Shown here piece after piece: positions 5,221 through 23,710 of a stretch of DNA of 29,342 nt (its first letter is position 1; each line of letters opens with the position of its first letter). A program made the translations under genes and the position numbers. Location of the stretch: positions 1 to 29,342 of the IMG/VR virus record IMGVR_UViG_3300027734_000242; one strand, 5' to 3'. The notes beneath the pieces were generated by a model. That model searched no databases. It was not told where the DNA came from and saw nothing but the letters and a program-made list of their open reading frames with translations. This DNA comes from a virus.

Positions 5221-7719
5221 ATGGCATTACAGATTAGACGAGGGTTGAATCAGGATAGAAAGTCTTTTATTCCTGAAATTGGAGAATTAATTTATACTAC
5301 GGATACGGATTTAATTTACGTTGGAGATGGTGTAACTCCGGGCGGTATATTAGTTTCGGGTCAAGAATCTGTTGTAAGAAACTTTTCGTCTATTAATGCA
5401 AATTCTTTCATAGTTCGAGCAAATGACATAAATCAAACTATGTCGTTTTTGCCAGCGAACGGTGTAACGATAAGAGCTAATTCTAATACAAATACAATAA
5501 CAATTGGGTTTGATGGTACATCTATATTATATGAAACCGCAGCAAACATTACATTAATTAATGCAAATATAGCATATTTAAATGCAATAAATAGTGTACA
5601 GAATACGACCATAAATACACTAAGTATTTTTGCCCAGGCAGCATTCAATGAAGCCAACACGGCACAATTTAATGCGGTATACACTCAAAGTATCAACAGT
5701 TATCAAAATACATTAATTTCCAGCGTCACTGCAAATACAACAGCACTTCAAGGTGGTCTTAACACAGCTAATGTTAATATAACATATATTCAAGGTGTTG
5801 ATTTAACACAAAATACAAATATTACTAATGTTGATGTGAAAGCTCAAGCCGCTTTTGATAAAGCAAATACAGCATCTTCACCACAAGCAGCATTTGATAA
5901 AGCAAATACAGCATCTTCGAATACAATAGCGCTTCAAGGTGGTCTTAATACAGCTAATGCTAATATATCATACATTCTAGGTGTCGATTCTTCACAGAAT
6001 ACAAGCATTACTAATTTACAAGGTGGACTTAATACTGCTAATGCTAATATAGCTTATATTTTAGGTGTTGATCTAACACAAAATACAAATATTACTAATG
6101 TTGATACAAAAACACAATCTGCTTTTGATAAAGCAAATTCAGCAAACGTACTGGCACAATCAGCATTTGATAAAGCAAATACAGCATCTTCAAATACAAT
6201 AACACTTCAAGGTGGTCTTAATACAGCTAATGCCAATATAGCATATATTTACGGCGTTAATGATTCACAAAATACCACAATTGGTACAAAATTTAATTCT
6301 TCTGGTGGAACAATATCTGGTTCTGTCATAATTCAACAAAACTTAACTGTACAAGGTAACGTATCCTATACAGGAAATGTAACGTCAATTACTGTTACAG
6401 GCAATACTGGTCAATTCTTTGGTTATGCAGCAAATGGATTTAATGCTTTATATGCTGGAATTCCAGTTGGTTATCTAATTGAACCACACATAGTTACTCA
6501 ATTTACAAGTAACTTCGATGGTTATTCTGGTCTTAATATGCAAAATATTAATTCTGGACCAAATGCTTCATTTGATTTATTCTTAACCGCTGACAATGGA
6601 ACCGCTTTAGACGGATACGTCGATTTAGGCATTGCTAGTAGTACATATAATTATCCTGGTTATTCTTTAATCGGCAAAAACGACGGTTATCTATTCACTT
6701 CTGGTAATACAACCACGGGTGGTGGTAACATGATTATCGGCACAGGTTTAAATCATGATATTATTTTTGCAACAGGTGGTTTAGAAACACAAAACGCAGT
6801 AATGCGAATTAGTGGTGTTGCTGGTTCCAATGTTATAACAATAACATCAAATATTAAAAGTACATCGACATCATCTGGTGCATTACAAATAAAGGGCGGT
6901 CTTGGTGTAACGGGTAATGTATACGCTGCAAATTTATATTCTGGTGGTTCTTTGGTATTAACTTCAGAGCCAATAGGTACGTTAGCTTCCAGTAATACAA
7001 TTTATTTACAAGGTGGTTTAAATACTGCTAATGCTAATATAGCATACATTCTAGGTGTTGATTTAACGCAGAATACTAGTATCACTAATATTGATACAAA
7101 AGCACAATCAGCATTCGATAAAGCAAATTCAGCAAACGTATTAGCACAATCTGTATATGATTATGCAAATACTTTTAGTATAACAGCAAATACTGGACAA
7201 TTGACTGCTAATGTATCCACTGGAAAAGTTGCACTGGGTCTAGCAAATGTAAATAGTAATATAGGAACATTTGGTGGTGCAACATCAATTCCAGTAATAA
7301 CATTAGATGGTTTCGGTAGAGTCACTTCTTCAGGAAATGTTACAGTTAACATACCACAATCATCTACAATTACAGTTTTAGATGATATATCAAATAGATT
7401 TGATGGTATCGAAAGAACTTTTGGTCTATATAGTGATGGTAGTGTTGCAAATGTTACGGCACCAGAACAGTTATTAGTTCAAGTTGGCGGAATCGTATTA
7501 CCACCTTTTATAAATACGTATGACGTAGTTTTTGGATCAGGATTCATTTCTTTTACTAAAGGATATAATATTGCAAATGTTACTAATGTTACATACATTA
7601 CATTTGCATCGGCACCACAAATCAACATGGATTGTGTGATGCGAGTGATTGGTCAAAATCAAATTCCTCAGATAAAAAAATACCCCCTAAGTCCAATATC
7701 AATAATGATTGGTTATTAA
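5221..7719 (+). CDS. Tail fibre, 832 aa, with hyaluronidase/Mtd-like N-terminal motif
   Basis: The start follows AGGACAATAAATG. The N-terminus (LQIRRG, GELIYTTDTDLIYVGDG, TPGG) is the short module seen at the front of many phage fibres and tropism determinants. Residues about 110-350 and 600-650 carry recurring segments AQSAFDKANT, LQGGLNTANANIAYI and GVDLTQNTNITN, typical of a trimeric coiled-coil or beta shaft. A globular insert lies between (about 350-590), with GALQIKGGLGVTGNVY near its end. The C-terminus (from about 720) has DDISNRFDGIERTFGLYSDG and resembles a conserved distal domain of aquatic T4-like phages. A paralogous shorter fibre lies at 25749. It is probably a structural fibre; no enzyme motif is seen. 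Confidence 0.82.
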   Translation: MALQIRRGLNQDRKSFIPEIGELIYTTDTDLIYVGDGVTPGGILVSGQESVVRNFSSINANSFIVRANDINQTMSFLPANGVTIRANSNTNTITIGFDGTSILYETAANITLINANIAYLNAINSVQNTTINTLSIFAQAAFNEANTAQFNAVYTQSINSYQNTLISSVTANTTALQGGLNTANVNITYIQGVDLTQNTNITNVDVKAQAAFDKANTASSPQAAFDKANTASSNTIALQGGLNTANANISYILGVDSSQNTSITNLQGGLNTANANIAYILGVDLTQNTNITNVDTKTQSAFDKANSANVLAQSAFDKANTASSNTITLQGGLNTANANIAYIYGVNDSQNTTIGTKFNSSGGTISGSVIIQQNLTVQGNVSYTGNVTSITVTGNTGQFFGYAANGFNALYAGIPVGYLIEPHIVTQFTSNFDGYSGLNMQNINSGPNASFDLFLTADNGTALDGYVDLGIASSTYNYPGYSLIGKNDGYLFTSGNTTTGGGNMIIGTGLNHDIIFATGGLETQNAVMRISGVAGSNVITITSNIKSTSTSSGALQIKGGLGVTGNVYAANLYSGGSLVLTSEPIGTLASSNTIYLQGGLNTANANIAYILGVDLTQNTSITNIDTKAQSAFDKANSANVLAQSVYDYANTFSITANTGQLTANVSTGKVALGLANVNSNIGTFGGATSIPVITLDGFGRVTSSGNVTVNIPQSSTITVLDDISNRFDGIERTFGLYSDGSVANVTAPEQLLVQVGGIVLPPFINTYDVVFGSGFISFTKGYNIANVTNVTYITFASAPQINMDCVMRVIGQNQIPQIKKYPLSPISIMIGY
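5830..7160 (+). repeat. Interspersed fibre repeats (AFDKANTA / LQGGLNTANANI)
   Basis: Within the 832-aa fibre, near-identical blocks such as gataaagcaaatacagcatc and caaggtggtcttaatacagc recur around 5850, 5890, 5935, 6020, 6120-6230 and 7010-7130. Related blocks occur in the fibre gene at 25749 (26010-26230). These can support recombination within and between fibre genes. Confidence 0.8.
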
Positions 7720-10986: not shown

Positions 10987-11313
10987 ATGATCACACCAAT
11001 CGTAACTGATGCGGTAGTAATAGGCAGTTCCAAAAATCCAGGACAATTTAATTTAAATGGTGATGGAACTGTCTCAAATATACTCAATGTAAATACATTA
11101 GCCGTAAATGGAAAAGTTGGTATCAATAGTGCGAATGGTACAATAAATTATGGTGTCGCTGGTCAAGTATTAACTTCAAGTGGCGCAAATGCTGCTCCCA
11201 TTTGGTCTAATATTACTGGAGGAACTGGAGGAAGTTCTACTGGTGCAGCTACTAGTTCAAGTGGAGTTTCAACAGGCAAAACAATCGCAATGGCAATTGT
11301 GTTTGGAGGATAA
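10987..11313 (+). CDS. Small fibre-module protein 'MITPIVTDA', copy A
   Basis: 108 aa. The first 70 residues (MITPIVTDAVVIGSSKNPGQ, then NVNTLAVNGKVGINSANGTI, then GQVLTSSGANAAPIW) are closely matched by the 129-aa protein at 19520. The C-terminus is a Ser/Gly/Thr-rich linker ending in a hydrophobic IAMAIVFGG. Its phrasing is typical of collar or fibre segments ('YGxxGQVLTSxGANxxPxW'). It opens fibre module A. The exact role is unknown; a connector between fibre shaft and tip proteins is inferred from context. Confidence 0.65.
   Translation: MITPIVTDAVVIGSSKNPGQFNLNGDGTVSNILNVNTLAVNGKVGINSANGTINYGVAGQVLTSSGANAAPIWSNITGGTGGSSTGAATSSSGVSTGKTIAMAIVFGG
11105..11139 (+). repeat. 35-bp exact direct repeat, left copy
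   Basis: These 35 bases, inside the copy A small fibre gene, recur without mismatch at 19638-19672 inside its paralogue, 8533 bases downstream in the same orientation. Flanking bases diverge but remain similar. Confidence 0.92.
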
Positions 11314-11316
11314 TTA

Positions 11317-11682
11317 ATGGCCGCACCAAATATTGTTAACGTAGCAACAATTACAGCTAAGTCTGTTGGAAGAGCCGTAACAACAAGTTTTGCTACTATA
11401 CTAACTAATTTAGCAGGTTCTGGTAAAGTATTGAAAATTAATTCATTTATTATATCTAATATTACAACTTCTACTAGTGCAGATATTTCTGCTCGGGTTT
11501 ATAAATCTGGAGTAACAACAGCATATTATATTGCTTTTACGATCACAGTTCCTGGTAGTTCTACGCTTGTATTAATTTCTAAAGATACAAGCATATACTT
11601 AGAGGAGGGTGATTACATTGAATTTTTATCTAGTAGCAATAGTACATTAAGTGGTTTTTGTAGTTATGAGGAGATAAGTTAA
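11317..11682 (+). CDS. Small beta-rich virion protein, copy A
   Basis: 121 aa, strong GGAGGA ribosome binding site. The sequence alternates beta strands, with GSGKVLKINSFIISNIT, then VPGSSTLVLISKDTSIYLEE and GDYIEFLSS. The paralogue at 19920 has IKLNSIIVSGTSSS, IPPKATLVVLSKDTGVYLGT and a similar end. The family looks like small jelly-roll proteins found next to phage fibres. No enzyme motif is visible. The stop overlaps the start of the next gene (TAATG). Confidence 0.62.
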   Translation: MAAPNIVNVATITAKSVGRAVTTSFATILTNLAGSGKVLKINSFIISNITTSTSADISARVYKSGVTTAYYIAFTITVPGSSTLVLISKDTSIYLEEGDYIEFLSSSNSTLSGFCSYEEIS

Positions 11683-12260
11683 TGTCTGGCAGTACGTTTA
11701 TTGAAAACAATAGTATGATAGGCTTAGACAGGACTAGTAATAAAGTAACAGACAAAGTTTTTAGTACAGAAACGTCACGAATAGTTAAAGGAAAAACTTT
11801 AACTGTTCCCGGTGCTCCAACACCGTATTATGTTCCCGGTGCCCTCGGTTTTCCTAATACTTTTTTTAGAGAAAGTTCTATTGGTACAACAGGTTATTAT
11901 TATCTGTACTATAGTCCTCCAATTAGTAATGGAGGAAGTCCAATAACCTCATATAATTATCAAATATTACATTATAGAGATTCATCAGTATTACTTTCTG
12001 GATCTTTTGGTGTTAATAACTACTATTTTTTTAGCCTTGATGTTGGATATTCATTGATTGCTACTATAACTGCAACAAATGCAATTGGAACTGGTCCAGC
12101 ATTTATAACCAACCCAATTTGTGGTGTAGGCGGTCAATATTTGCCAGGCACAGGTATATATTGTAGTGGTTGCAATACTCAATATATACAGAATAATGGA
12201 AACTGTGATTATTATGTGTATAATGTTTATGCCGATGGTTTTTGTTGCTCCGCCCCTTAA
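11682..12260 (+). CDS. Fibre tip-like protein with fibronectin III-like domain and Cys-rich end
   Basis: 192 aa, start overlaps the previous stop and is preceded by GAGGAG. An N-terminal motif NNSMIGLD matches the starts of three other tip proteins here (17945, 20273, 21343). Residues about 70-145 fit a fibronectin type III strand pattern (PPISNGGSPITSYNYQI, then YSLIATITATNAIGTGPAFI). The last 50 residues hold six cysteines (PIC, YCSGC, GNC, FCC), suggesting disulfides or a metal site in a receptor-binding tip. It holds the tip-1 position of module A, right before the enzyme cassette. Function is inferred from context. Confidence 0.6.
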   Translation: MSGSTFIENNSMIGLDRTSNKVTDKVFSTETSRIVKGKTLTVPGAPTPYYVPGALGFPNTFFRESSIGTTGYYYLYYSPPISNGGSPITSYNYQILHYRDSSVLLSGSFGVNNYYFFSLDVGYSLIATITATNAIGTGPAFITNPICGVGGQYLPGTGIYCSGCNTQYIQNNGNCDYYVYNVYADGFCCSAP

Positions 12261-12275
12261 TAGCGAAGAATATAA

Positions 12276-13745
12276 ATGAAATATTATACACACCCATATC
12301 TATTAGCAAATTATCCTAAAATGGTTGAATTTAGGCGCGCCATCAAACTAAATGTATTTACTAAAAAAGATTTATATTCGGTAGACAGAATGGGCATTAT
12401 AGGTAATGATCCAAACATTATAGTTATCCAACCTGTATTAAACTATGATTCTTCGCGCAAATATGATTTTGATATCCTAATAGAAAGCAGAGCAAAAGAA
12501 TTAATTGAATTAAGCAATACAAGAAACATACCAATTTATTTAATGTGGAGTGGTGGAATAGATAGCACTAGTGTCTATTGCGCTATAAAAAAACATTTAA
12601 CAGATAATAAAAAATTAGTTATATTATGTAATAAAAATTCAATTAAAGAATATCCTGAATTATATAACGAAATGATATCAGAACATGAAATTATTGACCT
12701 GGGTATTGTCGAATTTGGATTAACTATTAACAAATTGGCAAACATCGACAGTATATTTGTTACGGGTGAACTAGGTGATCAACTTTTTATGTCTAGACCT
12801 CCTAGAAAAAAAAGTAGTTTAACATCAATTGATTGGATCAACGATCCTTGGGAAGCAGTACTGGACCCAAATGCATCACAATATCATAGTGTTGTTGATG
12901 AATATGTTAAAAATTTTCCCATTCCAATTATTACAGCAAGAGATTTTGGCAGAAGTATAAAATTTAACTTAGAATATCAGCGCGCTCAACTTAGAATGAG
13001 TTTATTTTATAAAAATTTAGTATTAAATAAAAATTTATTTCATTTTTATGATACTATAGATTTTAATTATTATTCTTTAAGTTTATCTTTAGATGAATTG
13101 GGTATTGATTATAGGACTCATACAATCAAGTTACCTCTTAAACAATTAATTTTGGACTATACTGTTGACCAACACTATTATGAAAATAAACCTAAAGTTA
13201 AAAGAATTATGGCATTAAATCCAATTCAAATAACAAATACTATAGATGAAAATTGGAATAAATCATTAATTACCTTATCGTACACACCAAACTCAAATAA
13301 TGAATATATAGTAGATCAACCAGCAATCTATCACTATCAAGATGCATCTAAAAGTCAAGAGTTGGACTTTAATACAGGAATAGTTGATTGGAAAATGTAT
13401 CGTTTTGATGAAAGAAAATATATAAATTTTACAACAGAAGAAATAATAAAAGAGAATAATTATATTGTTGTCTGTGGTTTTGCGGAGAATAAACCAAAAA
13501 CATTAGAAAACTTTTTTATAATTGCCGGAACATTTTCTGAGTATAATATAAAGTCTGATAATATTAGTATATTGGTTTTACAGAAATTATTTTTATCCAA
13601 AACAGTAAAATTAATTGGCAACCACTTTCAAGGAGAATATGATCAAGTTATTAAAAAAGAATTTGAACAACAAATTAGTATAATAGATTGCAATGAATAT
13701 GAAGTGATTGATCCGAAAAATTATAATTTTACAAATTGGAGGTAA
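12276..13745 (+). CDS. Asparagine synthetase-like PP-loop ATP pyrophosphatase
   Basis: 489 aa. The signature PP-loop is MWSGGIDSTSV (SGGIDST at 92-98), which binds ATP pyrophosphate in adenylating amidotransferases, and GELGDQLF (164-171) matches the GDELF region of AsnB-type synthetases. The N-terminal class II glutaminase domain of true AsnB (Cys2) is absent; the first 80 residues are unrelated. A class I glutamine amidotransferase is encoded in the same cassette (16931) and could supply ammonia. The last 110 residues are unrecognised. It could activate a carboxylate for amide formation; the substrate is unknown. First gene of the cassette; the upstream sequence has only a weak ribosome binding site (gcgaagaa). 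Confidence 0.75.
   Translation: MKYYTHPYLLANYPKMVEFRRAIKLNVFTKKDLYSVDRMGIIGNDPNIIVIQPVLNYDSSRKYDFDILIESRAKELIELSNTRNIPIYLMWSGGIDSTSVYCAIKKHLTDNKKLVILCNKNSIKEYPELYNEMISEHEIIDLGIVEFGLTINKLANIDSIFVTGELGDQLFMSRPPRKKSSLTSIDWINDPWEAVLDPNASQYHSVVDEYVKNFPIPIITARDFGRSIKFNLEYQRAQLRMSLFYKNLVLNKNLFHFYDTIDFNYYSLSLSLDELGIDYRTHTIKLPLKQLILDYTVDQHYYENKPKVKRIMALNPIQITNTIDENWNKSLITLSYTPNSNNEYIVDQPAIYHYQDASKSQELDFNTGIVDWKMYRFDERKYINFTTEEIIKENNYIVVCGFAENKPKTLENFFIIAGTFSEYNIKSDNISILVLQKLFLSKTVKLIGNHFQGEYDQVIKKEFEQQISIIDCNEYEVIDPKNYNFTNWR
13738..13742 (+). promoter_or_regulatory. Ribosome binding site GGAGG that fixes the start of the binding-protein gene
   Basis: GGAGG lies inside the last codons of the PP-loop gene, 5 bases before ATG 13748. 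It favours that ATG over the in-frame TTG at 13736, since the TTG codon overlaps the GGAGG site itself. Confidence 0.75.
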
Positions 13746-13747
13746 CG

Positions 13748-14701
13748 ATGTTTAAAAAATTATTACTATTATTGACAATATTTTGTACTCAAGCATATGC
13801 TTGGGAACCAACTAAATCAATTAATGTTATGATTGGTTTTGCTCCAGGATCAGGAAATGAAATTAGTTTTCGTGGAGTCAGTAGTATATTAGAAAAAAAT
13901 AATCCAAAAGTTAAATTTATTATTGAAAATAAACCTGGTGCAGATGGTTTAATTGCAATAAATGACTTTATGAAAAAACCTGCTGATGGTTATCATGTTT
14001 ATATTCCAAGTCATCAAGGTATATGGCTAACAGGTGAATTTTTCTATAAAAATCTTGTAAATTTTACAGTAAACGATTTTGAATACGTGGTTACTATTGC
14101 AAAAAGTCCACTAGCCGTTATTGCGTATGGTGAAAGTTCAGTTAATACTGTTCCTGATTTACTACAAAGAATTAAAACTACAAATAAACCTATAACATTT
14201 GCTGCTGGTAGTGGTTCACATAGACTTGCTTTTGAATATATGAAAAGCAAAGTTGAAATGAGTGATTTGGTTAAAACTGTAGGTTATAAAGGACCAGCAC
14301 AAGCAGCACAAGATGTTGCTGGCGGTCATGTAGAATTTGGTATTATACCAATTGCGGTAGCAGCACCATTGCTTTCAAGTGGAAAAATTAAAATCTTAGG
14401 TTTATGTAGTGAAAAAACTTTATCTAATATTGATGCACCACTAATGAATAAATGGATTCCAGGCATGAATGTTTATGCTGCTTGGGGCATTGTATTACCT
14501 AAAGACACACCGTCAGAAATAGTCAACTGGTATGTTGACAACTTTGCAAATGTAATAAGATCATCTGAAAGTAAAAAGTTTTTTGATCAAAACTATATGT
14601 TTACTGATGAACGCGAACTGGCACCGATTGGATTTAAAAATAATATAGTAAAATTAAGAGAACAATGGATTCCAATTTTGCAAAATTTAAAGATTGAATA
14701 A
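13748..14701 (+). CDS. Tripartite tricarboxylate transporter (TctC/Bug)-type periplasmic binding protein
   Basis: 317 aa from the ATG chosen by the GGAGG site. Residues 1-18 form a clear Sec signal peptide (FKKLLLLLTIF, cleavage after AYA). The mature part follows the Bug/TctC pattern: W-E-P-T-K-S-I-N-V start, GFAPGSGNE (30-38), IENKPGADGLIAINDF, KPADGYHV, TFAAGSGS, GYKGPAQAAQDVAGGHVEFG, LGLCSEK, and WGIVLPKDTPSEIV. The fold binds carboxylates or related small molecules in the periplasm and feeds TctAB membrane proteins. No TctA or TctB is encoded here, so it would need host partners or act as a sensor or scavenger. At the position usually 'GGxTD' it has GSGNE, so ligand preference may differ. 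This is unusual cargo for a T4-like phage. Confidence 0.88.
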   Translation: MFKKLLLLLTIFCTQAYAWEPTKSINVMIGFAPGSGNEISFRGVSSILEKNNPKVKFIIENKPGADGLIAINDFMKKPADGYHVYIPSHQGIWLTGEFFYKNLVNFTVNDFEYVVTIAKSPLAVIAYGESSVNTVPDLLQRIKTTNKPITFAAGSGSHRLAFEYMKSKVEMSDLVKTVGYKGPAQAAQDVAGGHVEFGIIPIAVAAPLLSSGKIKILGLCSEKTLSNIDAPLMNKWIPGMNVYAAWGIVLPKDTPSEIVNWYVDNFANVIRSSESKKFFDQNYMFTDERELAPIGFKNNIVKLREQWIPILQNLKIE

Positions 14702-14704
14702 CGC

Positions 14705-14860
14705 ATGTTCATTAAATTTATCAAGACTATATACAATAAAATCAAACAATTTTGGCATTGGTCAAATAATTTTGAAGATGATTATTCTTTTGCACTAAGG
14801 ATGGAACGTGAATATGAAAGTATGCGATTACACAGAAAGCAATCAAGAGTTACTAAATAA
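14705..14860 (+). CDS. Small basic protein, 51 aa, unknown
   Basis: An open frame begins 3 bases after the binding-protein stop: MFIKFIKTIYNKIKQFWHWS followed by an acidic then strongly basic tail ending SRVTK. The N-terminus could form a basic amphipathic helix. It fills the only gap in the cassette and overlaps the next gene by 47 bases in another frame. No good ribosome binding site is visible, and I do not recognise the family. It is reported because the gap would otherwise be empty in a compact genome. Confidence 0.42.
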   Translation: MFIKFIKTIYNKIKQFWHWSNNFEDDYSFALRMEREYESMRLHRKQSRVTK

Positions 14861-15368
14861 TTATTTTTCAAATCATTGGACATCCCGTGGAGTAGCGGGT
14901 ATTTCATCACCAAAAACTATAGCAACTTTAATTAAAGAAGACGAATGGTTGTTGGATGTAGGTTGTGGAACTAATCCATTTAAACGGTTACTTAAAAATG
15001 TTATAGGCATAGATCCTGCATTTAACGAAGCAGATTATAAATGCACTATAGAAGAATATGAACCCGATAGACTATTTGATGTTGCCACGTGTTTAGGTAG
15101 TATAAATTTTGGTACCGAAGATATCATCGAAAGACAAATTGATAAGGTTGTTAGTTGTTTGAAACCACAATCTAGAATATATTGGAGATTAAATCCTGGA
15201 AGATTTGATCACAATAGTACAGAATGTTTAAAAGTTCCTTTTTATCCATGGACATTTGAACAGTTAAATGTATATGCAAATAAACATAATTTTATTCAAG
15301 TCGCTCAGGCTATGGACGAACACGTTGTGAGGCCAAGATTATATGCAGAATGGTATAGAACTTCCTAA
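14814..15368 (+). CDS. Class I SAM-dependent methyltransferase
   Basis: 184 aa from ATG 14814; a GTG at 14808 would add two residues. AAGGATGGA lies upstream. Motif I is LLDVGCGTNPF (about 46-56), followed by NVIGIDPAF (motif II acidic region), LFDVATCLGSINFG (motif IV region) and YWRLNPGRFDH. It resembles small standalone methyltransferases that act on sugars or small molecules. Its 3' end overlaps the sulfotransferase-like gene by 26 bases, so the two are probably translationally coupled. The substrate is unknown. Confidence 0.75.
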   Translation: MKVCDYTESNQELLNNYFSNHWTSRGVAGISSPKTIATLIKEDEWLLDVGCGTNPFKRLLKNVIGIDPAFNEADYKCTIEEYEPDRLFDVATCLGSINFGTEDIIERQIDKVVSCLKPQSRIYWRLNPGRFDHNSTECLKVPFYPWTFEQLNVYANKHNFIQVAQAMDEHVVRPRLYAEWYRTS

Positions 15369-15960
15369 AAGAATATTTTTCACAGGCGCACCAGGTAGCC
15401 GTTGGAGTGGTATAGCACAAACTATCGAGAATCTTAGCGGATTCAATACTAGTGATCGTAATGATAACAGAGTGCATTACAGAAAAGGTATTGGTAGAGG
15501 AGGCAATATTGGTAAAATGCATGGACACAATGGATCATATTTTGGCCACGAAATGGAATTTGAGGCCATATTAGATGCAGATTACTTAGATCAAGCATGG
15601 AGTAATTTGAGTGGTACACGGATAATAAAAAGTCATGAATGGGCTTATAAAATAGAAGAAATAAAAAATAAGTTTCCTGATGATTGGATTATGTTAGTTT
15701 ATAGACCAGACATGGTTAGTTATTCTTGGTGGCATGAACTCGGTGGATTTAAAATTTCATATCCCAAATATACTTGGTATAAAGATAGTCCTACTATGTT
15801 AGGTGAGATAATTAAAATCAATTCACATATATTAGAGTCTGCTTATAAATACAATTTGACATGGAATTATTTAACAGAAGATTGGATTCAAGATAATTTT
15901 GGTCAGACTACAGAAATAATAACCAAAAGTTCAGACGTTCTAGTTACAATATTAAAATAA
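15343..15960 (+). CDS. Sulfotransferase-like protein
   Basis: 205 aa. The N-terminal IFFTGAPGSRWSGIAQ (residues 11-26) is a P-loop-like 5'-phosphosulfate binding loop, and MLVYRPDMVSYSWWHELGGF fits the 3'-phosphate motif with Arg and Ser. PAPS-dependent sulfotransferases share this arrangement, and related short versions occur in aquatic T4-like phages. It would transfer sulfate from PAPS to a glycan or small molecule. A P-loop kinase of another type is the alternative. Starts inside the methyltransferase gene. Confidence 0.65.
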   Translation: MQNGIELPKRIFFTGAPGSRWSGIAQTIENLSGFNTSDRNDNRVHYRKGIGRGGNIGKMHGHNGSYFGHEMEFEAILDADYLDQAWSNLSGTRIIKSHEWAYKIEEIKNKFPDDWIMLVYRPDMVSYSWWHELGGFKISYPKYTWYKDSPTMLGEIIKINSHILESAYKYNLTWNYLTEDWIQDNFGQTTEIITKSSDVLVTILK

Positions 15961-15963
15961 ATA
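15956..15963 (+). promoter_or_regulatory. Possible late promoter AATAAATA
   Basis: AATAAATA, one base from TATAAATA, overlaps the sulfotransferase-like stop and precedes ATG 15978, with AAAGAGAAATA as ribosome binding region. In such AT-rich DNA it may be chance. Confidence 0.35.
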
Positions 15964-15977
15964 TTCAAAGAGAAATA

Positions 15978-16178
15978 ATGATTTCATCATTTTTAGTTGA
16001 TAAAAAAACGTATTACAGTAGACTGCAAATTTGTACATCATGTGATAAATTTGAAAAAGTTTTGCATAGATGTTCTGAGTGTGGTTGTATTATGCCATTG
16101 AAGGCTAAAATTGCAAATTCTACTTGTCCATTAAATAAATGGCAACAAGTAGATAACAGTTTAATAAAAGATCAATAA
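15978..16178 (+). CDS. Small Cys-rich zinc-ribbon-like protein
   Basis: 66 aa with a Cys pattern of CTSC, then CSECGC, then TCP ending in NKW. The spacing and the C-terminal 'K..IANSTCPLNKW' match a small DUF6171-like family frequent in phages and proposed to bind zinc. Function is unknown. It sits between the sulfotransferase-like and ferritin-like genes and could be an accessory or regulatory protein. Confidence 0.65.
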   Translation: MISSFLVDKKTYYSRLQICTSCDKFEKVLHRCSECGCIMPLKAKIANSTCPLNKWQQVDNSLIKDQ

Positions 16179-16188
16179 GGAATAGACA

Positions 16189-16965
16189 ATGAAATATGAT
16201 ATGGTAGATATAGAAAAAATGGCAGAAGACAATGATTCTGTAAATCATCAAATTAAACAATTTGTTGACAAAATAGAATCTGATAACGAAACTTTATTTG
16301 CAGTTTCAGAAAAACAAGTTAAAAACTTTTATATGACACATTCAAATACAGATTTGGTAAAGCATTTTACCAGTCGTATGGTTAATGAGCGTATGAATAT
16401 GGTAGAGTTGGCCAAACAAATTGCTAATTCTGATGCGGGTATGGATCCAAAAGAATTACAATTATTAAGTAAACAAGCATTGGATGAGGCTAATCATTTT
16501 AGAATGGTAAAAGATGTTGTTGAACATTTAAATGGTGGTCCAATCAACATTAAAGAGTTTGTTGAATATGATTCGGCAAATAATTCTAGTTCTAAAGGCG
16601 CTAAACTTATCCAAAAATATAATTGTGACAATGACGAAATGGCAATGGCATTATATCAGTTTATTTGCGAAGGTCGTGCAGCACGAAATTGGTTTATGAT
16701 GTCAACTTGTGTTACAGATCCATTTATTGCAAATACTTACGCAAGAATTGCACGAGATGAAAAATTTCACTCAAAAATTGGTAGACGTAAATTAATGCAA
16801 CTTTGTGATACTCCAGAAAAACAAGAACGTGCAATGAAAATTGCTAATGCAATGCGTATTGATCTATATGAAATTAATTGCAGTGGATCAGGAGAGATGG
16901 AAGGCACTCGTGAATTAATCGAAAAAGCATATGGTAAAGCAGAGCAGTTTGAAAATAGCAATTAG
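16189..16965 (+). CDS. Ferritin-like di-iron protein
   Basis: 257 aa, start supported by AAGGAATAGACAATG. The helical core holds a full di-iron ligand set: Glu67 (VNERMNM), E100-x-x-H103 (DEANHFRM), Glu161 (CEGRAARNW) and E191-x-x-H194 (RDEKFHSKIG). The E, ExxH, E, ExxH order and roughly 30-residue spacing match oxygen-activating carboxylate-bridged enzymes (PaaA, aldehyde deformylating oxygenase, ribonucleotide reductase R2 relatives) and rubrerythrin. Length and lack of a rubredoxin tail favour an oxidase or oxygenase. It is not a phage NrdB: the sequence is too short and lacks the radical-tyrosine context. Its 3' end overlaps the amidotransferase gene, so they are probably translated together. 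Confidence 0.75.
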   Translation: MKYDMVDIEKMAEDNDSVNHQIKQFVDKIESDNETLFAVSEKQVKNFYMTHSNTDLVKHFTSRMVNERMNMVELAKQIANSDAGMDPKELQLLSKQALDEANHFRMVKDVVEHLNGGPINIKEFVEYDSANNSSSKGAKLIQKYNCDNDEMAMALYQFICEGRAARNWFMMSTCVTDPFIANTYARIARDEKFHSKIGRRKLMQLCDTPEKQERAMKIANAMRIDLYEINCSGSGEMEGTRELIEKAYGKAEQFENSN

Positions 16966-17488
16966 TCAGCGAGAAGAAACTATTGGAAAATTTAATTATG
17001 ATTGCTTGTCACAAAATTGGTATAGATTTTTAAATAAACATCAGATTATTCCTATACCTAACGTGGATGATAACAAAGAATATGATTTTGATGTTTTAAT
17101 TTTAAGTGGTGGCAACTGTAGTTTATCTAGGTTTCACACAGAATTAAAGTTATATAATCATGCTGTGGATAAAAATTTGCCTATAATTGGTATTTGTCAT
17201 GGTGCTTTTTTTATCGCAGAAATAAATGGTTCAATATGTGCAGATGTTAAAGGACATAAAGATACAGAACACACGATTAATATGGAAGATAAAGAATTTA
17301 TAGTAAATAGTTCACATAATAGCAAAATTACAAAACTTGGTAAAAATTTTAATATTATAGCTACAGACAAAGAATACAATATAGAAGCATTTAAACACGA
17401 TAAAAAATCAATTTGGGGTATGTTGTGGCATCCAGAGAATATGAAAAATGCTGTATTACCTTCAGAACTACACTCATTACTGATGTAA
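16931..17488 (+). CDS. Class I glutamine amidotransferase (peptidase C26-like)
   Basis: 185 aa from ATG 16931; a TTG at 16949 giving KIAISQRE is a plausible alternative because the family starts near that point. Nucleophile elbow GICHGAF carries Cys89, and WHPE supplies His167 and Glu169, completing the triad. LILSGGN (56-62) is the usual oxyanion-side strand. This domain releases ammonia from glutamine for a partner synthetase, or hydrolyses gamma-glutamyl amides. The PP-loop protein at 12276 lacks a glutaminase, so the two may form a split amidating enzyme. Overlaps the ferritin-like gene by 35 bases. Confidence 0.85.
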   Translation: MVKQSSLKIAISQREETIGKFNYDCLSQNWYRFLNKHQIIPIPNVDDNKEYDFDVLILSGGNCSLSRFHTELKLYNHAVDKNLPIIGICHGAFFIAEINGSICADVKGHKDTEHTINMEDKEFIVNSSHNSKITKLGKNFNIIATDKEYNIEAFKHDKKSIWGMLWHPENMKNAVLPSELHSLLM

Positions 17489-17497
17489 GGATACAAA

Positions 17498-17944
17498 ATG
17501 CCGGAAGAAATTAGTTTATCAGAATTGGAGATTCAGTTTCCATATGATCCTGAGACAGATACAATCAATCAAAAACTACCAGATCCAATAGTTCTTACTG
17601 GAGATGTGATTGAAATTACCGAATGGAATGTTTTTTCTGTTAGATCAAAAATATTAGGATATAAAACCTTACATTTTGTAGGCAAAATTAATGTAAATAA
17701 TCAAATAATGGACTATTACAGTGGTCCAGTAAAAACATACGATCCAAAAAATGATTGGTGGATACAAGATGAACAATTTGTTTGTCCAGGGTGTAAGAGA
17801 ATATATTATAGACTTGTGGGTTTACGAAATATACATTCTATGATTAATAAAAATATTATGCCTAACATGGATAATCTTGATATTACACTTGAAGAAAATT
17901 TTTATGTTTATAAAAAAACGGAAGATTCACCGGTATATCTATAA
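17498..17944 (+). CDS. Unknown protein with CPGC motif, 148 aa
   Basis: AAGGATACAAAATG supports the start. The sequence has SRSKI-like and beta-rich segments, then DDWWIQDE-style aromatics (NDWWIQDEQFVCPGCKRIYY) with a single CPGC pair, and ends KKTEDSPVYL. Two cysteines alone could complete a metal site only in a dimer or with His29-type ligands elsewhere. I do not recognise the family. It is the last gene before the second tip protein and abuts it with no gap (TAA then ATG), so it could belong to the fibre module rather than to the enzyme cassette. Confidence 0.55.
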   Translation: MPEEISLSELEIQFPYDPETDTINQKLPDPIVLTGDVIEITEWNVFSVRSKILGYKTLHFVGKINVNNQIMDYYSGPVKTYDPKNDWWIQDEQFVCPGCKRIYYRLVGLRNIHSMINKNIMPNMDNLDITLEENFYVYKKTEDSPVYL

Positions 17945-19015
17945 ATGAGAAAAAATAATAGTTTTATAGGTAAAGAGGCAAGCGTTACGACAACAAAAGC
18001 GTCGGGTATTTCTAGTAATATCAATAAATTTAACTATACAAAAGGTGGAGTCTGGCCTTATACATTATTAAATAATGTACCTCCTTTGGTTGAATATTTG
18101 GTTGTTGGTGGAGGTGGTGGTGCAGGATCTACTGCTTCTGGTGGTGGTGGTGCAGGTGGATTTAGAACTGGATTTTATCAAATTACACCAGCAACGAGAA
18201 CGAATAGTTTTAATGTTATTGTTGGTGCCGGTGGTGCCTCCACATCAATATCTTTCGCCATGGTTGGAAACAACGGTAGAGATTCTAGATTTGCAAGTAT
18301 ACATTCAGTTGGTGGTGGCTCAGGATGGGGATATGGTTCTCTCATCTCTATACCTGTTCAGGCATTTGTTGATCATGGAGGCACCGGAGGTTCTGGTGGC
18401 GGAGGAATGCTAAATGGGCCCGGTTCCGTTTTTACCGCAATGAATGGCGGATCAGGAATTGCTGGGCAAGGGTATGATGGAGGAAAGTCAGGATTTTCCT
18501 CTACCAGCGTGTATCCGTATAGAGGCGCCGGAGGTGGTGGAGGCGGTGCCGGAGGAAAAGGAGGTGATTATATTGAACCTTACGGTAATCTGCCGAGCAG
18601 TGGAGGCCCGTATATGCCCGCTGGAGGACTTTGCGCAACATCAGATATAACAGGAGTATTAACTGAGTACGCTGGAGGTGGTGGAGGAGGAGGATATATT
18701 GGATCAGGATATAACGGATATAACGGCGGCAACCCTGGCGGCGCGGGCGCGGGTAGGGGCTCGTCTAGCGCCTACAGTGCTATAAATCAAAACGCCTCTA
18801 TTCCAAATAGAGGTAGCGGCGGTGGCGGTAGCGCCTATTACGGTGGCGGTTCTGGATCTAGCGGCGTAGTAATTTTAGCATATCCTACAGCATTCGCTGC
18901 GATAACGACAATTACAAATTTAACATATTCTGTGTCAACAACATCACGTCCTGGTTACTATGTCTACACATTTACAGCACATTCAGGAAGTAGCGGAACT
19001 ATAGCATGGTCATAA
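17945..19015 (+). CDS. Glycine-rich adhesin, tail-fibre tip (module A, tip 2)
   Basis: 356 aa. Starts RKNNSFIGKEA, matching the N-terminal motif of the other tip proteins. From about residue 52 it shows VEYLVVGGGGGAG and long Gly-rich runs (GGGGAGG, GGTGGSGGGG, GGGGGGAGGKGG) spaced by short variable loops, ending SSGVVILAYPTAF and a C-terminal YSVSTTSRPGYYVYTFTAHS. This is the architecture of glycine-rich receptor-binding proteins such as gp38-type adhesins, where Gly motifs form a polyglycine II core and loops bind host receptors. A paralogue of the C-terminal part is at 26582. The assembly chaperone gene follows at once. Base composition from 18360 on is far more GC-rich than the neighbours. 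Confidence 0.8.
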   Translation: MRKNNSFIGKEASVTTTKASGISSNINKFNYTKGGVWPYTLLNNVPPLVEYLVVGGGGGAGSTASGGGGAGGFRTGFYQITPATRTNSFNVIVGAGGASTSISFAMVGNNGRDSRFASIHSVGGGSGWGYGSLISIPVQAFVDHGGTGGSGGGGMLNGPGSVFTAMNGGSGIAGQGYDGGKSGFSSTSVYPYRGAGGGGGGAGGKGGDYIEPYGNLPSSGGPYMPAGGLCATSDITGVLTEYAGGGGGGGYIGSGYNGYNGGNPGGAGAGRGSSSAYSAINQNASIPNRGSGGGGSAYYGGGSGSSGVVILAYPTAFAAITTITNLTYSVSTTSRPGYYVYTFTAHSGSSGTIAWS

Positions 19016-19018
19016 ATA
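19011..19018 (+). promoter_or_regulatory. Possible late promoter CATAAATA
   Basis: CATAAATA overlaps the adhesin stop codon and lies 19 bases before the chaperone ATG, with AAGGAAAAATAA between. The same octamer stands at 19481 and 29332. Confidence 0.4.
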
Positions 19019-19029
19019 AGGAAAAATAA

Positions 19030-19479
19030 ATGTTGTATAGTTATAAAAAACAATATCCAGAAGAGTTGCCATTTAGAATAGAATTGCCTAACGGTTTTAC
19101 TAGAACTGATCCTTCATCATTTACTGAAGAGGAACTTCTATCTGCTGGATATGTTAAAGTGCCACCAAAACCAATATTTGATGAATCTAGGCAAAAATTA
19201 ATTTGGACAGATGAATATTGGGTAATAATCGATAAGACTGAAGAAGAAAAGATCGATCTTATACAAGAAGAGTGGAATAAAGTAAGAGAAAAAAGAAATC
19301 AATTAATAAAAGATGTTGAGTGGAGATACGACAGATATTTTAGAATAGAAAGATTGGGCGGAAATCAAATAGATGACATTAACAAATTAGATTATTATGT
19401 TCGTGCTTTGGCAGATTTACCACAAGCACAAGAAAATCCATTCAAATTAATATGGCCAAAATATGATGCGCCAGATTAA
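19030..19479 (+). CDS. Tail-fibre assembly chaperone-like protein, copy A
   Basis: 149 aa. The C-terminal half fits the phage tail assembly chaperone pattern (Phage_tail_APC-like): EEWNKVREKRNQLIKDVEW, then RIERLGGNQID, LADLPQAQENPF and IWPKY. The N-terminal half is variable. A paralogue at 22435 has the same C-terminal layout (LNQIDNIDELD, LANLPESQQDPF, IWPKYNDP). Such proteins help fold or attach the adhesin encoded next to them. Position directly after the glycine-rich tip supports that. Confidence 0.78.
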   Translation: MLYSYKKQYPEELPFRIELPNGFTRTDPSSFTEEELLSAGYVKVPPKPIFDESRQKLIWTDEYWVIIDKTEEEKIDLIQEEWNKVREKRNQLIKDVEWRYDRYFRIERLGGNQIDDINKLDYYVRALADLPQAQENPFKLIWPKYDAPD

Positions 19480-19480
19480 T

Positions 19481-19488
19481 CATAAATA
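19481..19488 (+). promoter_or_regulatory. Late promoter-like CATAAATA before module B
   Basis: CATAAATATATAA begins 2 bases after the chaperone stop and 39 bases before ATG 19520, with ATAGGAAAATTT between. The whole gap resembles the one at 22901-22935 after the second chaperone, suggesting the promoter was copied with the module. Confidence 0.5.
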
Positions 19489-19519
19489 TATAATAATTTA
19501 TAGGAAAATTTAATCTAAA

Positions 19520-19909
19520 ATGATAACACCAATCGTAACTGATGCTATAACAATAGGTAGTTTCAAAAATCCAGGTCAACTGAATTTGATTGGTGATGGA
19601 ACTGTATCAAATGTTTTAAACATTAATACATTATCAATAAATGGAAAAGTTGGTATCAATAGTGCGAATGGTGTAATAAATTATGGCAATTCTGGGCAAG
19701 TTTTAACTTCAACTGGTGCAAACTCTGTTCCAAATTGGGCAAATGCTGCTACTACATATCAATTACCTGTTGCTAGTGCGTCTACATTAGGTGGAATAAA
19801 AGTTGGATCAGGATTAAGTATGAATGTAGAAACAAGTGTACTCAGCAGTACTAGTGTGGGTGGTGTTACACTAGCAGCAGTAATTATAAATGCAATGGTC
19901 TATGGTTAA
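19520..19909 (+). CDS. Small fibre-module protein 'MITPIVTDA', copy B
   Basis: 129 aa, paralogue of 10987. The N-terminal 70 residues match almost position by position (MITPIVTDAITIG, KNPGQLNL, NGKVGINSANGVINYG, GQVLTSTGAN). After the shared part it carries YQLPVASASTLGGIKVGSGL, a widespread phage fibre motif absent from copy A, which has a Ser/Gly linker there instead. It opens module B. Confidence 0.68.
   Translation: MITPIVTDAITIGSFKNPGQLNLIGDGTVSNVLNINTLSINGKVGINSANGVINYGNSGQVLTSTGANSVPNWANAATTYQLPVASASTLGGIKVGSGLSMNVETSVLSSTSVGGVTLAAVIINAMVYG
19638..19672 (+). repeat. 35-bp exact direct repeat, right copy
   Basis: Identical to 11105-11139, same orientation. The pair brackets the end of module A and the whole enzyme cassette. 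Confidence 0.92.
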
Positions 19910-19919
19910 GGAATAAAAG

Positions 19920-20270
19920 ATGCCCAATTTAACTACTACAACTTCAATAGAACCAAAAACATTAACAATTACAGTACCAACATCTGATACTTCTACTGGT
20001 TTATCTGTTGGTGCAAATCAAGTAATTAAATTAAACAGTATTATTGTAAGTGGCACATCTAGTTCAGTAGATGTTACTGTATATGTGGTAGTCAACTCTG
20101 TGATTGGTTATCTTGCAAATGCTATAACTATTCCACCAAAAGCAACACTTGTGGTATTATCAAAAGATACTGGCGTTTATTTAGGAACAGGTAATACTTT
20201 AAACATATTTGCTGGAGGTAGTGGTTCATCAGCAACGATATCATATGAATTAATTACAACATCTGCGTAA
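19920..20270 (+). CDS. Small beta-rich virion protein, copy B
   Basis: 116 aa, AAGGAATAAAAGATG start. Paralogue of 11317: IKLNSIIVSGTSSS, IPPKATLVVLSKDTGVYLGT and a beta C-terminus. Same position in the module, between the MITPIVTDA protein and the first tip. No enzymatic motif. Confidence 0.65.
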   Translation: MPNLTTTTSIEPKTLTITVPTSDTSTGLSVGANQVIKLNSIIVSGTSSSVDVTVYVVVNSVIGYLANAITIPPKATLVVLSKDTGVYLGTGNTLNIFAGGSGSSATISYELITTSA

Positions 20271-20272
20271 TT

Positions 20273-21322
20273 ATGTTTAATAAAGCACAAAGTTCTTTTA
20301 GTGGCGGCATTGTTGGTGAATCGGGAAATAACGGATTTCAATTTGATGATTACATTGATGAATTAGCTGGAAAAAACGCGTATTCTGTATATCCCAACTA
20401 TCAGTCTTTTATTGGTTATAGACCAGGAATCTACAACTTAAAATCACAATATAATTTCAAAAGTCTTAAACATTGGGCTAAAAAACCATATCTTGTAGAT
20501 TTAGGAGAAACATCTTCTACTCAAGATACAACCGGTTGGACTGGACAAATATTCCCATATAGTTTAGTGGGTATTCACAATTACGGTGGACCAATTATTT
20601 CAGCAAATATATTAAAACCAGGTGATTTTATATTGTGGTTAACAACGTCATACTCTACAAGTTATTATCCATTTGGTTCTAGTCCGCGTATAGGACTAGA
20701 TAATAATACTTCTATGAGTTCGATTATGACTCTCACAGCATCAAGTCCACCAATGCAAGCAAATTATTTTATTGTTCCAAATGTAGCAAATACTGATCAG
20801 TATAGATATATAACTCATCCGGGCGTAACGCCTAATGCAATAACTTTTTCTATAAGATCTGCAGACCATCAAGTGGGTTTCTTTTATCTTATAATTAGGG
20901 ATCTTCCTGCAAACTTTACATTTCAGTCTTTAGTTGGACCAACTAATTTTTCGTCGGCCTCCACCGGTCGACCTGCAGGTGTTGCTACTAGTACTACTAA
21001 TTTTTCTACTTATGCTACTAGACTAAGATTTGGAATGGGGTCACAGAGAATACTTTCATCCGGGTATGATCCTGAGTTTCAAATTTATATGAATTCGGGA
21101 ATACCTCAACGATATTATGTGACAACTTATGGTCTCGCAACTAGAAGCAGTTATTTATCTGTTCATTGGGATATAATTAATCCGCAAACATATTCAAATT
21201 CATATACAGGTTCTCAACTCGATTATAATACACTGCACGAAACAAGTTTTCGTAGAGCATTTCAAAATTTTTGGTTAGATGGAACATATTATGAGTTTGA
21301 CCTTGTTTTTAACGAATATTAA
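20273..21322 (+). CDS. Putative fibre tip protein, module B tip 1
   Basis: 349 aa, start 2 bases after the previous stop with no obvious ribosome binding site, so probably coupled. N-terminal FSGGIVGESGN resembles NNSMIGLD at 11682 and VNGGIIGNS at 21343. The rest is Ser/Thr/Tyr/aromatic-rich and beta-like (ILKPGDFILWLTTSYST, HQVGFFYLIIRDLPANFTF), with a counterpart LQPNDVIYWIMTDAYV in the next gene, so the two are probably diverged paralogues. No known enzyme motif. Receptor binding is inferred from position. Confidence 0.58.
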   Translation: MFNKAQSSFSGGIVGESGNNGFQFDDYIDELAGKNAYSVYPNYQSFIGYRPGIYNLKSQYNFKSLKHWAKKPYLVDLGETSSTQDTTGWTGQIFPYSLVGIHNYGGPIISANILKPGDFILWLTTSYSTSYYPFGSSPRIGLDNNTSMSSIMTLTASSPPMQANYFIVPNVANTDQYRYITHPGVTPNAITFSIRSADHQVGFFYLIIRDLPANFTFQSLVGPTNFSSASTGRPAGVATSTTNFSTYATRLRFGMGSQRILSSGYDPEFQIYMNSGIPQRYYVTTYGLATRSSYLSVHWDIINPQTYSNSYTGSQLDYNTLHETSFRRAFQNFWLDGTYYEFDLVFNEY

Positions 21323-21328
21323 TAAATA
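21321..21328 (+). promoter_or_regulatory. Possible late promoter AATAAATA
   Basis: AATAAATA overlaps the tip-1 stop codon, 22 bases before ATG 21343. One mismatch from consensus in AT-rich DNA. Confidence 0.35.
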
Positions 21329-21342
21329 TACAAGATAATAAT

Positions 21343-22407
21343 ATGAGAGTAAACGGAGGAATAATTGGCAATTCTTTAGTGCCAAATACAATAGATAGAA
21401 GTAATCAAAGTGGTTTATTTACATTAGATAATAGTCTGCGTGGATATGGCGGTGCGTTAGGGGATTCGACTTTAAAACTGGTGGGTTTTGCAGAATTTAA
21501 TACTACTGGTGCTGGTAGTTATTTAGGTTCAAGTAGTCAAGTAGTAAATGGTTTACAACCTAATGATGTAATCTACTGGATAATGACAGATGCATATGTA
21601 GGTAGTACATCAACAACAACTGCTGCTACAAATTTAAATAATGCATACATTGGTTGGTTTGGTTATGCTGACAAATATCCCTCCTATGATGCTAGAATTT
21701 ATACTGCTGGAAAAGAGTTGGCATTTTATGATATTAGACGAAATAGCGATTCATCTAGAGCAATTCTTTCTTCAGATTTTAGTAGTGCTATATTGTCAAC
21801 ATATAGATCATATATTGTTACAGCATATAGTATTGTAACAGAGCCCGGTAATTATGCAATTTCAACAACCACAAGTGCTTTACCAAGTGGAAGTTTAACA
21901 TATTTTAAGCACACATATGCATTTGTATTTAGAAATGTTGATATTAATAGATTAACTACATATAGAGCAAATTATGGTGTAGGTAATCCATATACTCCAT
22001 ATACAAGAGTGTTGTTAGGCAATTCATTACAACTTTCAACCTCACCTTATGCAGGTTATTATCAATCGGATGATAATTTTAGAAGTCTTACTCTGCCGTC
22101 AGGTAATGATAAAGATACATTAATTGGTGTTGTAATTTCAACATATGACATAGTGAGTGAATGGCCAGATTATCTAAATTCTAAAAATAGAGGGTATTAT
22201 GATCGTAAAAATTTAGGTGGTTCGGGTTATTTTTCAATGTTAACTACTGATAAATTTACCAATACTGGTCTAACAACACACGCTTTCATTGGTACATCCT
22301 CAGATATGCAACTTACAACATATGTGCCAGGAACAGCATCAACATACTATCCAACTAATTCTAATTTGTATATAAGTGCTTATAGTGTTATGGTTCCCAG
22401 TCTCTAA
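21343..22407 (+). CDS. Putative fibre tip protein, module B tip 2
   Basis: 354 aa. N-terminal MRVNGGIIGNSLVPNTI carries the shared tip motif. The body is beta-rich with LQPNDVIYWIMTD (about 75), AYIGWFGYADKYPS and a C-terminal ISAYSVMVPSL. It is not glycine-rich, unlike the tip-2 protein of module A, so the tip seems to have been exchanged while the N-terminus and the downstream chaperone were kept. Similar in length and weakly in sequence to the preceding gene. Confidence 0.58.
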   Translation: MRVNGGIIGNSLVPNTIDRSNQSGLFTLDNSLRGYGGALGDSTLKLVGFAEFNTTGAGSYLGSSSQVVNGLQPNDVIYWIMTDAYVGSTSTTTAATNLNNAYIGWFGYADKYPSYDARIYTAGKELAFYDIRRNSDSSRAILSSDFSSAILSTYRSYIVTAYSIVTEPGNYAISTTTSALPSGSLTYFKHTYAFVFRNVDINRLTTYRANYGVGNPYTPYTRVLLGNSLQLSTSPYAGYYQSDDNFRSLTLPSGNDKDTLIGVVISTYDIVSEWPDYLNSKNRGYYDRKNLGGSGYFSMLTTDKFTNTGLTTHAFIGTSSDMQLTTYVPGTASTYYPTNSNLYISAYSVMVPSL

Positions 22408-22434
22408 TACGCATTATCATAAAGGTATATTATT

Positions 22435-22905
22435 ATGCAATTACTCAACAGAAAACTTTACTCATATAAAGGCGGTAATCCAAAAGTCTTGCCTGAACTT
22501 ATACCAACAGAAAGTGGTAATTTTTTAACAAACTCTATAAATTTATCGGATAAAGTATTAGAAGAAAATGGATATATTAGAGTTGAAGACAAACCAGAAA
22601 CAAATAATAGATTCTCTTATGTGACTTGGGAGAACGGATGGGTAATAAAAGATATACCTGATGAAGAAAAGAGTAGTATGATAGAAAGTGAATGGGAAAA
22701 AATACGAATGGAAAGAGATTTTTTCATTAGACAAAATACTTGGAGATACGAAAGAATTGCTAGAAGAGAACGATTAGGTTTAAATCAAATTGATAATATT
22801 GACGAATTAGACGTTTATATTCAAGAGTTGGCAAATTTACCCGAATCACAACAAGATCCATTTAATATTATATGGCCCAAATATAATGATCCTGAAAATA
22901 AATAA
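22435..22905 (+). CDS. Tail-fibre assembly chaperone-like protein, copy B
   Basis: 156 aa, AAAGGTATATTATTATG start. The C-terminal Phage_tail_APC-like pattern is WEKIRMERDFFIRQNTWRYE, RRERLGLNQIDNIDELD, LANLPESQQDPF, IWPKYNDP. The N-terminal half differs more from copy A than the C-terminal half, as expected if that part meets a different tip protein. Confidence 0.78.
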   Translation: MQLLNRKLYSYKGGNPKVLPELIPTESGNFLTNSINLSDKVLEENGYIRVEDKPETNNRFSYVTWENGWVIKDIPDEEKSSMIESEWEKIRMERDFFIRQNTWRYERIARRERLGLNQIDNIDELDVYIQELANLPESQQDPFNIIWPKYNDPENK

Positions 22906-22916
22906 ATATATAAATT
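22901..22916 (+). promoter_or_regulatory. Late promoter-like AATAAATATATAAATT before gp13
   Basis: Two overlapping near-matches to TATAAATA (AATAAATA at 22901 and TATAAATT at 22909) lie at the end of the chaperone gene and 20-35 bases before gp13. ATAGGAAATTTTAAAC supplies the ribosome binding site. It would start neck gene transcription. Confidence 0.5.
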
Positions 22917-22935
22917 AATATAGGAAATTTTAAAC

Positions 22936-23709: not shown

Positions 23710-23710
23710 A

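Follow-up and report, generated by a model that had tools for sequence, protein, structure and literature searches.

The gene at positions 13748-14701 of the window, the 29,342-nt stretch of viral DNA analysed here (IMG/VR record IMGVR_UViG_3300027734_000242, positions 1 to 29,342), encodes a TctC/Bug-type solute-binding protein that, judging from its sequence, belongs to an old, deep, virus-only lineage, found so far only in phages. The gene stands in a conserved cassette with methyltransferase-like and sulfotransferase-like genes. Bacteria use TctC/Bug-type proteins to pick up small acids on the outer side of the inner membrane, and a transport gene in a phage is commonly interpreted as one taken from the host. 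The features of the window to which we refer are as follows.

12276-13745, + strand: PP-loop (SGGIDS) ATPase-like protein, directly upstream of the TctC gene with a 2-nt gap (sequence motif)
13748-14701, + strand: TctC/Bug-type solute-binding protein gene, virus-only GNE branch, with signal peptide (317 aa)
13748-13801, + strand: predicted signal peptide, residues 1-18, cleavage before W19 (inspection of the translation)
13838-13861, + strand: ligand-loop motif FAPGSGNE, residues 31-38 (alignment; motif role from PMC5812351)
14808-15368, + strand: class I SAM-dependent methyltransferase-like protein, cassette gene MT (weak match to Pfam Methyltransf_23)
15343-15960, + strand: sulfotransferase-like P-loop protein, cassette gene ST (Sulfotransfer_3 in other members; modelled fold)
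16189-16965, + strand: ferritin-like (possible di-iron) protein, optional cassette gene FER (weak match to Pfam DUF455/PaaA_PaaC)
16931-17488, + strand: class I glutamine amidotransferase / peptidase C26-type protein, optional cassette gene GAT (Pfam 9.8e-16)

The TctC reading frame runs from an ATG at 13748 to a TAA at 14699-14701, is preceded by a GGAGG ribosome-binding site at 13738-13742, and starts 2 nt past the stop of the upstream gene, which ends at 13745. The protein matches Pfam TctC (PF03401) over most of the domain (E 3.9e-28, 99 bits, cut-off 27), and among solved structures its sequence comes closest to Bug27 (2qpq, E 9.6e-21). An AlphaFold2 model built from 16 viral sequences (pLDDT 92) aligns to BugD and 2dvz with a target TM of about 0.90, and its top 17 PDB matches are all TctC/Bug-type chains (TM up to 0.91). 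By homology and modelled fold, the phage protein belongs to the TctC/Bug family as a divergent branch. On inspection the N-terminus has the form of a signal peptide (MFKKLLLLLTIFCTQAYA followed by WEPTK), and a simple rule finds a signal-like N-terminus in 70 of 79 viral relatives; periplasmic export is predicted on these grounds. The sequence-only reading described a full-length secreted binding protein, and the intact 317-aa frame, the Pfam match and the signal-peptide form bear this out. Comparison with the copy at locus L018 (dN 0.18, dS 1.2) indicates purifying selection on the gene. A short open reading frame of 51 aa (MFIKFIKTIYNKIKQFWHWS...) lies at 14705-14860, between TctC and the methyltransferase gene, and overlaps the start of the latter in another frame.

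The ligand loop sets the phage proteins apart. The loop of characterised family members, P-F-X-A-G-G-X-X-D, is near-ubiquitous but not strictly defining, and coordinates a pair of water molecules bridging to the proximal carboxylate of the ligand (PMC5812351). The phage pocket loop reads GFAPGSGNE, which does not match this strict signature but retains the F and the first G. Residues G34, G36, N37 and E38 are invariant in all 79 non-redundant viral relatives, which carry G-x-G-N-E where the family norm is G-G-x-x-D; in every one the second loop glycine has become serine or alanine and the aspartate has become glutamate. The alignment indicates that both changes are fixed in the viral clade and that GNE is diagnostic of the whole viral family. 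The substitution of GSGNE for GGxTD had been noticed correctly from the window, and it extends to 79/79 viral relatives. The phage protein thus resembles Bug27, BugD, AdpC and TphC in its Pfam match, two-domain fold, predicted signal peptide and the glycine-rich loop that links strand 1 to helix 1, but differs in a loop of the form P-G-[SA]-G-N-E, with Glu for the near-ubiquitous Asp and Ser or Ala for the second Gly, that is found in phages only.

In IMG/VR, where counts are redundant, motif patterns derived from the viral alignment matched 328 stretches, 301 of which encode TctC relatives. Near-identical patterns matched 27 stretches in 84,980 bacterial and archaeal genomes, none encoding a relative, and the phages in GenBank yielded no close relative, only a single match at 23.5% identity. 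With relaxed patterns, the best bacterial TctCs among the matches listed are about 23-31% identical to the phage protein and mostly from Betaproteobacteria. With a profile built from the viral family, held-out viral members (n=68) receive 375-508 bits, against 141 bits for the highest-scoring of 141 bacterial TctCs. At E 1e-48, a cut-off that viral members clear with a wide margin, the profile found no viral-type TctC in 300 Burkholderiales and 398 Pseudomonadota genomes. PHROGs and NCBIfam returned no family for the protein. The BFVD/UniProt entry A0A6J5T247, from an uncultured Caudovirales phage, is 44% identical (TM 0.92) and very probably another member of the viral family; its PBP2_Bug_TTT label is automatic annotation only. 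The literature searched held no study on the phage TctC family and none on A0A6J5T247.

Could the gene nevertheless point to the host? The sequence-only reading expected that a likely host origin might identify the host group, and proposed a TctC tree to find the nearest bacterial clade. In that tree (100 rows), the viral GNE sequences and the sequence from L039 form one clade with SH-aLRT support of 100, apart from 45 bacterial sequences. Given this deep viral branch and the low identity to bacterial relatives among the matches listed, there is no recent host capture to read, and we rejected host identification by this route, since a close bacterial relative is absent. Like phage auxiliary metabolic genes, it is a phage-borne gene of a metabolic or transport type. 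It differs from a recently host-derived one in that no close cellular homologue was found, by motif in the 84,980 genomes or by profile in the 300 and 398, and in that it represents an old viral lineage within a conserved cassette.

The setting is viral throughout. The TctC gene lies among the virion genes of a T4-like phage: tail-fibre-like proteins are encoded upstream, and gp13/gp14/gp15-type connector and tail proteins and a terminase downstream; the gp17-type terminase is 54% identical to cyanophage terminases. These genes confirm the T4-like, virion-block context recognised initially. The PP-loop ATPase-like gene also lies directly upstream of TctC in L002 and L039, and its product has no Pfam match. 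The observation might instead be an artefact, either of contig chimerism or of bacterial DNA misassigned to a virus, and a chimera was one of the outcomes named beforehand as refuting it. A second contig, L002, is collinear with window positions 11083-24498 (96.7% over 13,444 bp) and spans both boundaries of the TctC gene, which shows that the window is not chimeric here; hundreds of viral relatives in the same cassette likewise leave an artefact with a negligible probability. Elsewhere in the window, the tail-fibre-like protein at 1-2670 carries a long collagen-like GxQG repeat and a C-terminus that resembles an intramolecular chaperone domain, and ARAGORN calls a tRNA-Ser (anticodon act) at 7525-7608, within a structural gene, which is probably spurious. 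In another TctC-bearing contig, of 99 kb, a single TAG interrupts the terminase frame (G012:C1:22221-23513, L391), which could reflect recoding, an insertion or an error.

TctC is not a lone gene but part of a conserved multi-gene cassette, overlooked at first, in which the genes at 14808-15368 and 15343-15960 follow it directly. When open reading frames were clustered around 97 loci picked by TctC alone, MT and ST emerged as its two constant companions; in 96 viral TctC loci searched by profile, MT is present in 90 and ST in 84. Reciprocal searches of IMG/VR, which returned 362 MT and 320 ST relatives, confirm the linkage. Within the best 80 of the 362 MT relatives, TctC lies within 4 kb in 48 of 53 full-flank loci, and within the best 80 of the 320 ST relatives it does so in 50 of 53. 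The latter 80 loci also have a 2OG-oxygenase-like gene (78/80) and an APS-kinase-like gene (39/80), the second often fused to a nucleotidyltransferase-like domain. FER and GAT are optional: the window has both, and GAT is present in the same locus in 35 of 35 FER cases. Gene order and strand vary among loci. MT, ST and the 2OG-oxygenase occur at 0 of 80 bacterial TctC loci. Other genes adjoin the cassette in some phages. A DNA/RNA non-specific endonuclease with a signal-like N-terminus (Pfam 3.6e-38; L062:2902-3747 and relatives, 16 loci) is encoded upstream, at times with MT alone between it and TctC, and a DnaK-type chaperone gene lies directly downstream of TctC in one phage subgroup (L021:6913-8784, with relatives in L051-L057).

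Putative functions of the MT, ST, oxygenase, ferritin-like and amidotransferase genes come from weak family matches. MT begins with GTG, with an in-frame ATG at 14814, and overlaps ST by 26 nt. Sulfotransfer_3 matches 8 of 13 ST members (best 4.8e-5), the ST of the window being without a match. The ST model has its nearest folds in the tyrosylprotein sulfotransferases (TPST1: VIA Z 9.9, rmsd 2.9, 153 residues), compared with 8.4 for nucleotide kinases, and its best Foldseek E is 0.025; we tentatively regard ST as a sulfotransferase. The 2OG-oxygenase call reflects an HxD...H...R pattern and a weak match, and the best NCBIfam model for GAT, gamma-glutamyl-CDP-amidate hydrolase, scores below cut-off. 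A profile search returned no solved relative for MT, the 2OG-oxygenase or FER.

What might a phage do with such a set? The leading idea is carboxylate uptake: the protein would capture an organic anion that a host TctA/B-type permease would then import, probably for the benefit of the neighbouring enzymes, a proposal we hold at a little under an even chance. TctC would be exported through Sec during infection and would close around the anion, most likely a carboxylate, using the modified GNE loop. It would then hand the anion to a host TctA/TctB-type permease, in the manner supposed for orphan Bugs of bacteria; some few large phages supply a TctA themselves. The imported compound would probably be a substrate or precursor for cytoplasmic tailoring enzymes of the phage encoded alongside. 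These would include MT and ST, in many relatives the 2OG-oxygenase and an APS-kinase-like protein as a possible source of PAPS, and, for the window, the ferritin-like protein and the amidotransferase. We infer the ligand class, the use of a host permease and the metabolic link between binding protein and enzymes.

The model has a parallel in the orphan Bugs of Bordetella and Rhodopseudomonas (e.g., AdpC), which occur without TctA or TctB and often beside possible substrate-using enzymes (PMC5812351). The phage TctC is likewise encoded without TctA and TctB and adjoins enzymes, but its neighbours (MT, ST, oxygenase and the APS-kinase-like protein) are of phage type and absent beside 80 bacterial TctC genes.

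A permease is missing from most carriers. A search of the window contig returned no TctA, and no TctB-like reading frame was noticed, consistent with the initial statement that both are missing; a complete tripartite transporter is not encoded here. Across contigs that may be incomplete, TctA occurs in 1 of 41 searched and TctB in 0 of 40, which counts against the uptake model. Transport as a general theme is nonetheless supported by phages that carry TctA and a porin, and the extra TctC copies, 44 in 31 contigs, also speak for an uptake function. On G708, a contig of 340 kb, TctA is present at full length (441 aa, Pfam 4e-50). Four viral contigs of large phages, G708 among them, carry a full TctA gene; they are 80-100% identical in it and unlike anything in GenBank phages (full-length genes at L402:1474-2799, L407:5953-7278 and L408:5962-7287; L402 lies on the 340-kb contig IMGVR_UViG_3300042473_001265). 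The closest published case found is a SUP05 viral contig with a hit to a tctA domain (PMC4164917). Three distinct TctA phages each have a porin nearby (the one checked matches Pfam Porin_4) and, directly behind TctA, a secreted protein of 267-273 aa with a PPGGGTE motif. If functional, a phage-encoded TctA with a nearby porin would put most of a nutrient-uptake route in one phage. The PPGGGTE protein is at most a candidate TctC; we do not claim that identity for the 273-aa form, which has no Pfam or PDB family and for which hhalign was not significant. A PP-loop ATPase gene lies next to or near the viral TctA, and homology with the one in the window is not claimed, the match being confined to the SGG motif region.

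The cassette is mobile. Between the window and the 335-kb phage G001, terminases are 32% identical while TctC, MT and ST are about 71/71/70% identical, which indicates that the cassette crosses phage lineages. Between G714 and G708, in contrast, terminases are 90% identical and TctCs 41%. Over 62 non-redundant loci, the Spearman correlation of divergence is 0.08 for TctC-MT and 0.20 for TctC-ST, as against 0.68 for MT-ST. TctC alleles are therefore also exchanged independently. That the cassette arises from simple synteny among close phage relatives is disfavoured by these clashing identities and by the variation in order and strand. Tight co-divergence of receptor and enzymes was not found over the 62 loci, and tight pairing of substrate and enzymes is to that extent unsupported.

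Independent exchange of TctC alleles fits a simpler explanation, namely that the protein widens carboxylate uptake for energy and carbon and that its neighbours are unrelated passengers at a favoured insertion site. Orphan Bug proteins commonly work without a local TctA/B (PMC5812351), and extra TctC lineages occur within the same genomes (44 copies in 31 contigs, several lineages). We consider plain nutrient help unlikely, however: MT, ST and TctC find each other reciprocally at rates of roughly 90% or higher in full-flank loci (best 80), and they stay together despite changing order and strand.

The enzymes might instead methylate, hydroxylate and sulfate a surface or virion glycan, with TctC gathering a precursor or holding an exported intermediate, the purpose being exclusion of other phages or masking of a receptor. 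A family 2 glycosyltransferase-methyltransferase fusion at 3237-4508, in the virion block of the window, is in keeping with such remodelling, as are the signal-like non-specific nuclease near some cassettes and the resemblance of the ST fold to tyrosylprotein sulfotransferases. Yet a glycosyltransferase was not noticed as a regular cassette member, and glycan assembly has no known role for a binding protein; we judge remodelling, and with it either purpose, decidedly unlikely.

Another reading is small-molecule signalling, in which a sulfated or methylated product would leave the cell and be sensed by TctC, for example via a host two-component sensor, tuning infection. There is precedent in Bordetella, where citrate-bound BctC signals through the BctDE two-component system (PMC5812351), and the cassette does place what look like tailoring enzymes beside a receptor-like protein of the periplasm. 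A receptor should diverge with the enzymes that make its signal, however, and TctC follows MT not at all and ST barely, which speaks against a receptor and a signal locked in strict co-evolution. Nor was a gene for a sensor or for export identified among the regular members of the cassette, and signalling seems to us very improbable.

To return to uptake in service of the enzymes, a bolder variant would make the cassette a small-molecule module of the phages' own, swapped between T4-like and jumbo phages. It would combine a virus-only receptor with enzymes of methylation, hydroxylation and sulfation, sometimes with TctA and a porin, capturing, modifying and possibly exchanging a metabolite or signal; we rate this as unlikely. 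At a more general level, the old virus-only lineage, the invariant loop and the mobile but conserved cassette in hundreds of contigs suggest sustained selection for handling a specific periplasmic small molecule. A phage-only family nearly always beside the same enzyme genes points to an undescribed manipulation of small molecules in infected cells, and the single proteins and defined gene set make the role of phage periplasmic binding proteins directly testable.

Viral TctC-like genes extend beyond the GNE branch. A second lineage, with the motif SSGPGSGSD, is encoded by reading frames starting at L074:8232, L096:9107, L347:2317, L362:6838, L367:5388 and L372:6020, several of them a short way downstream of the cassette described above, and more viral TctC lineages are present in L010, L113-L115, L119, L284 and L338.
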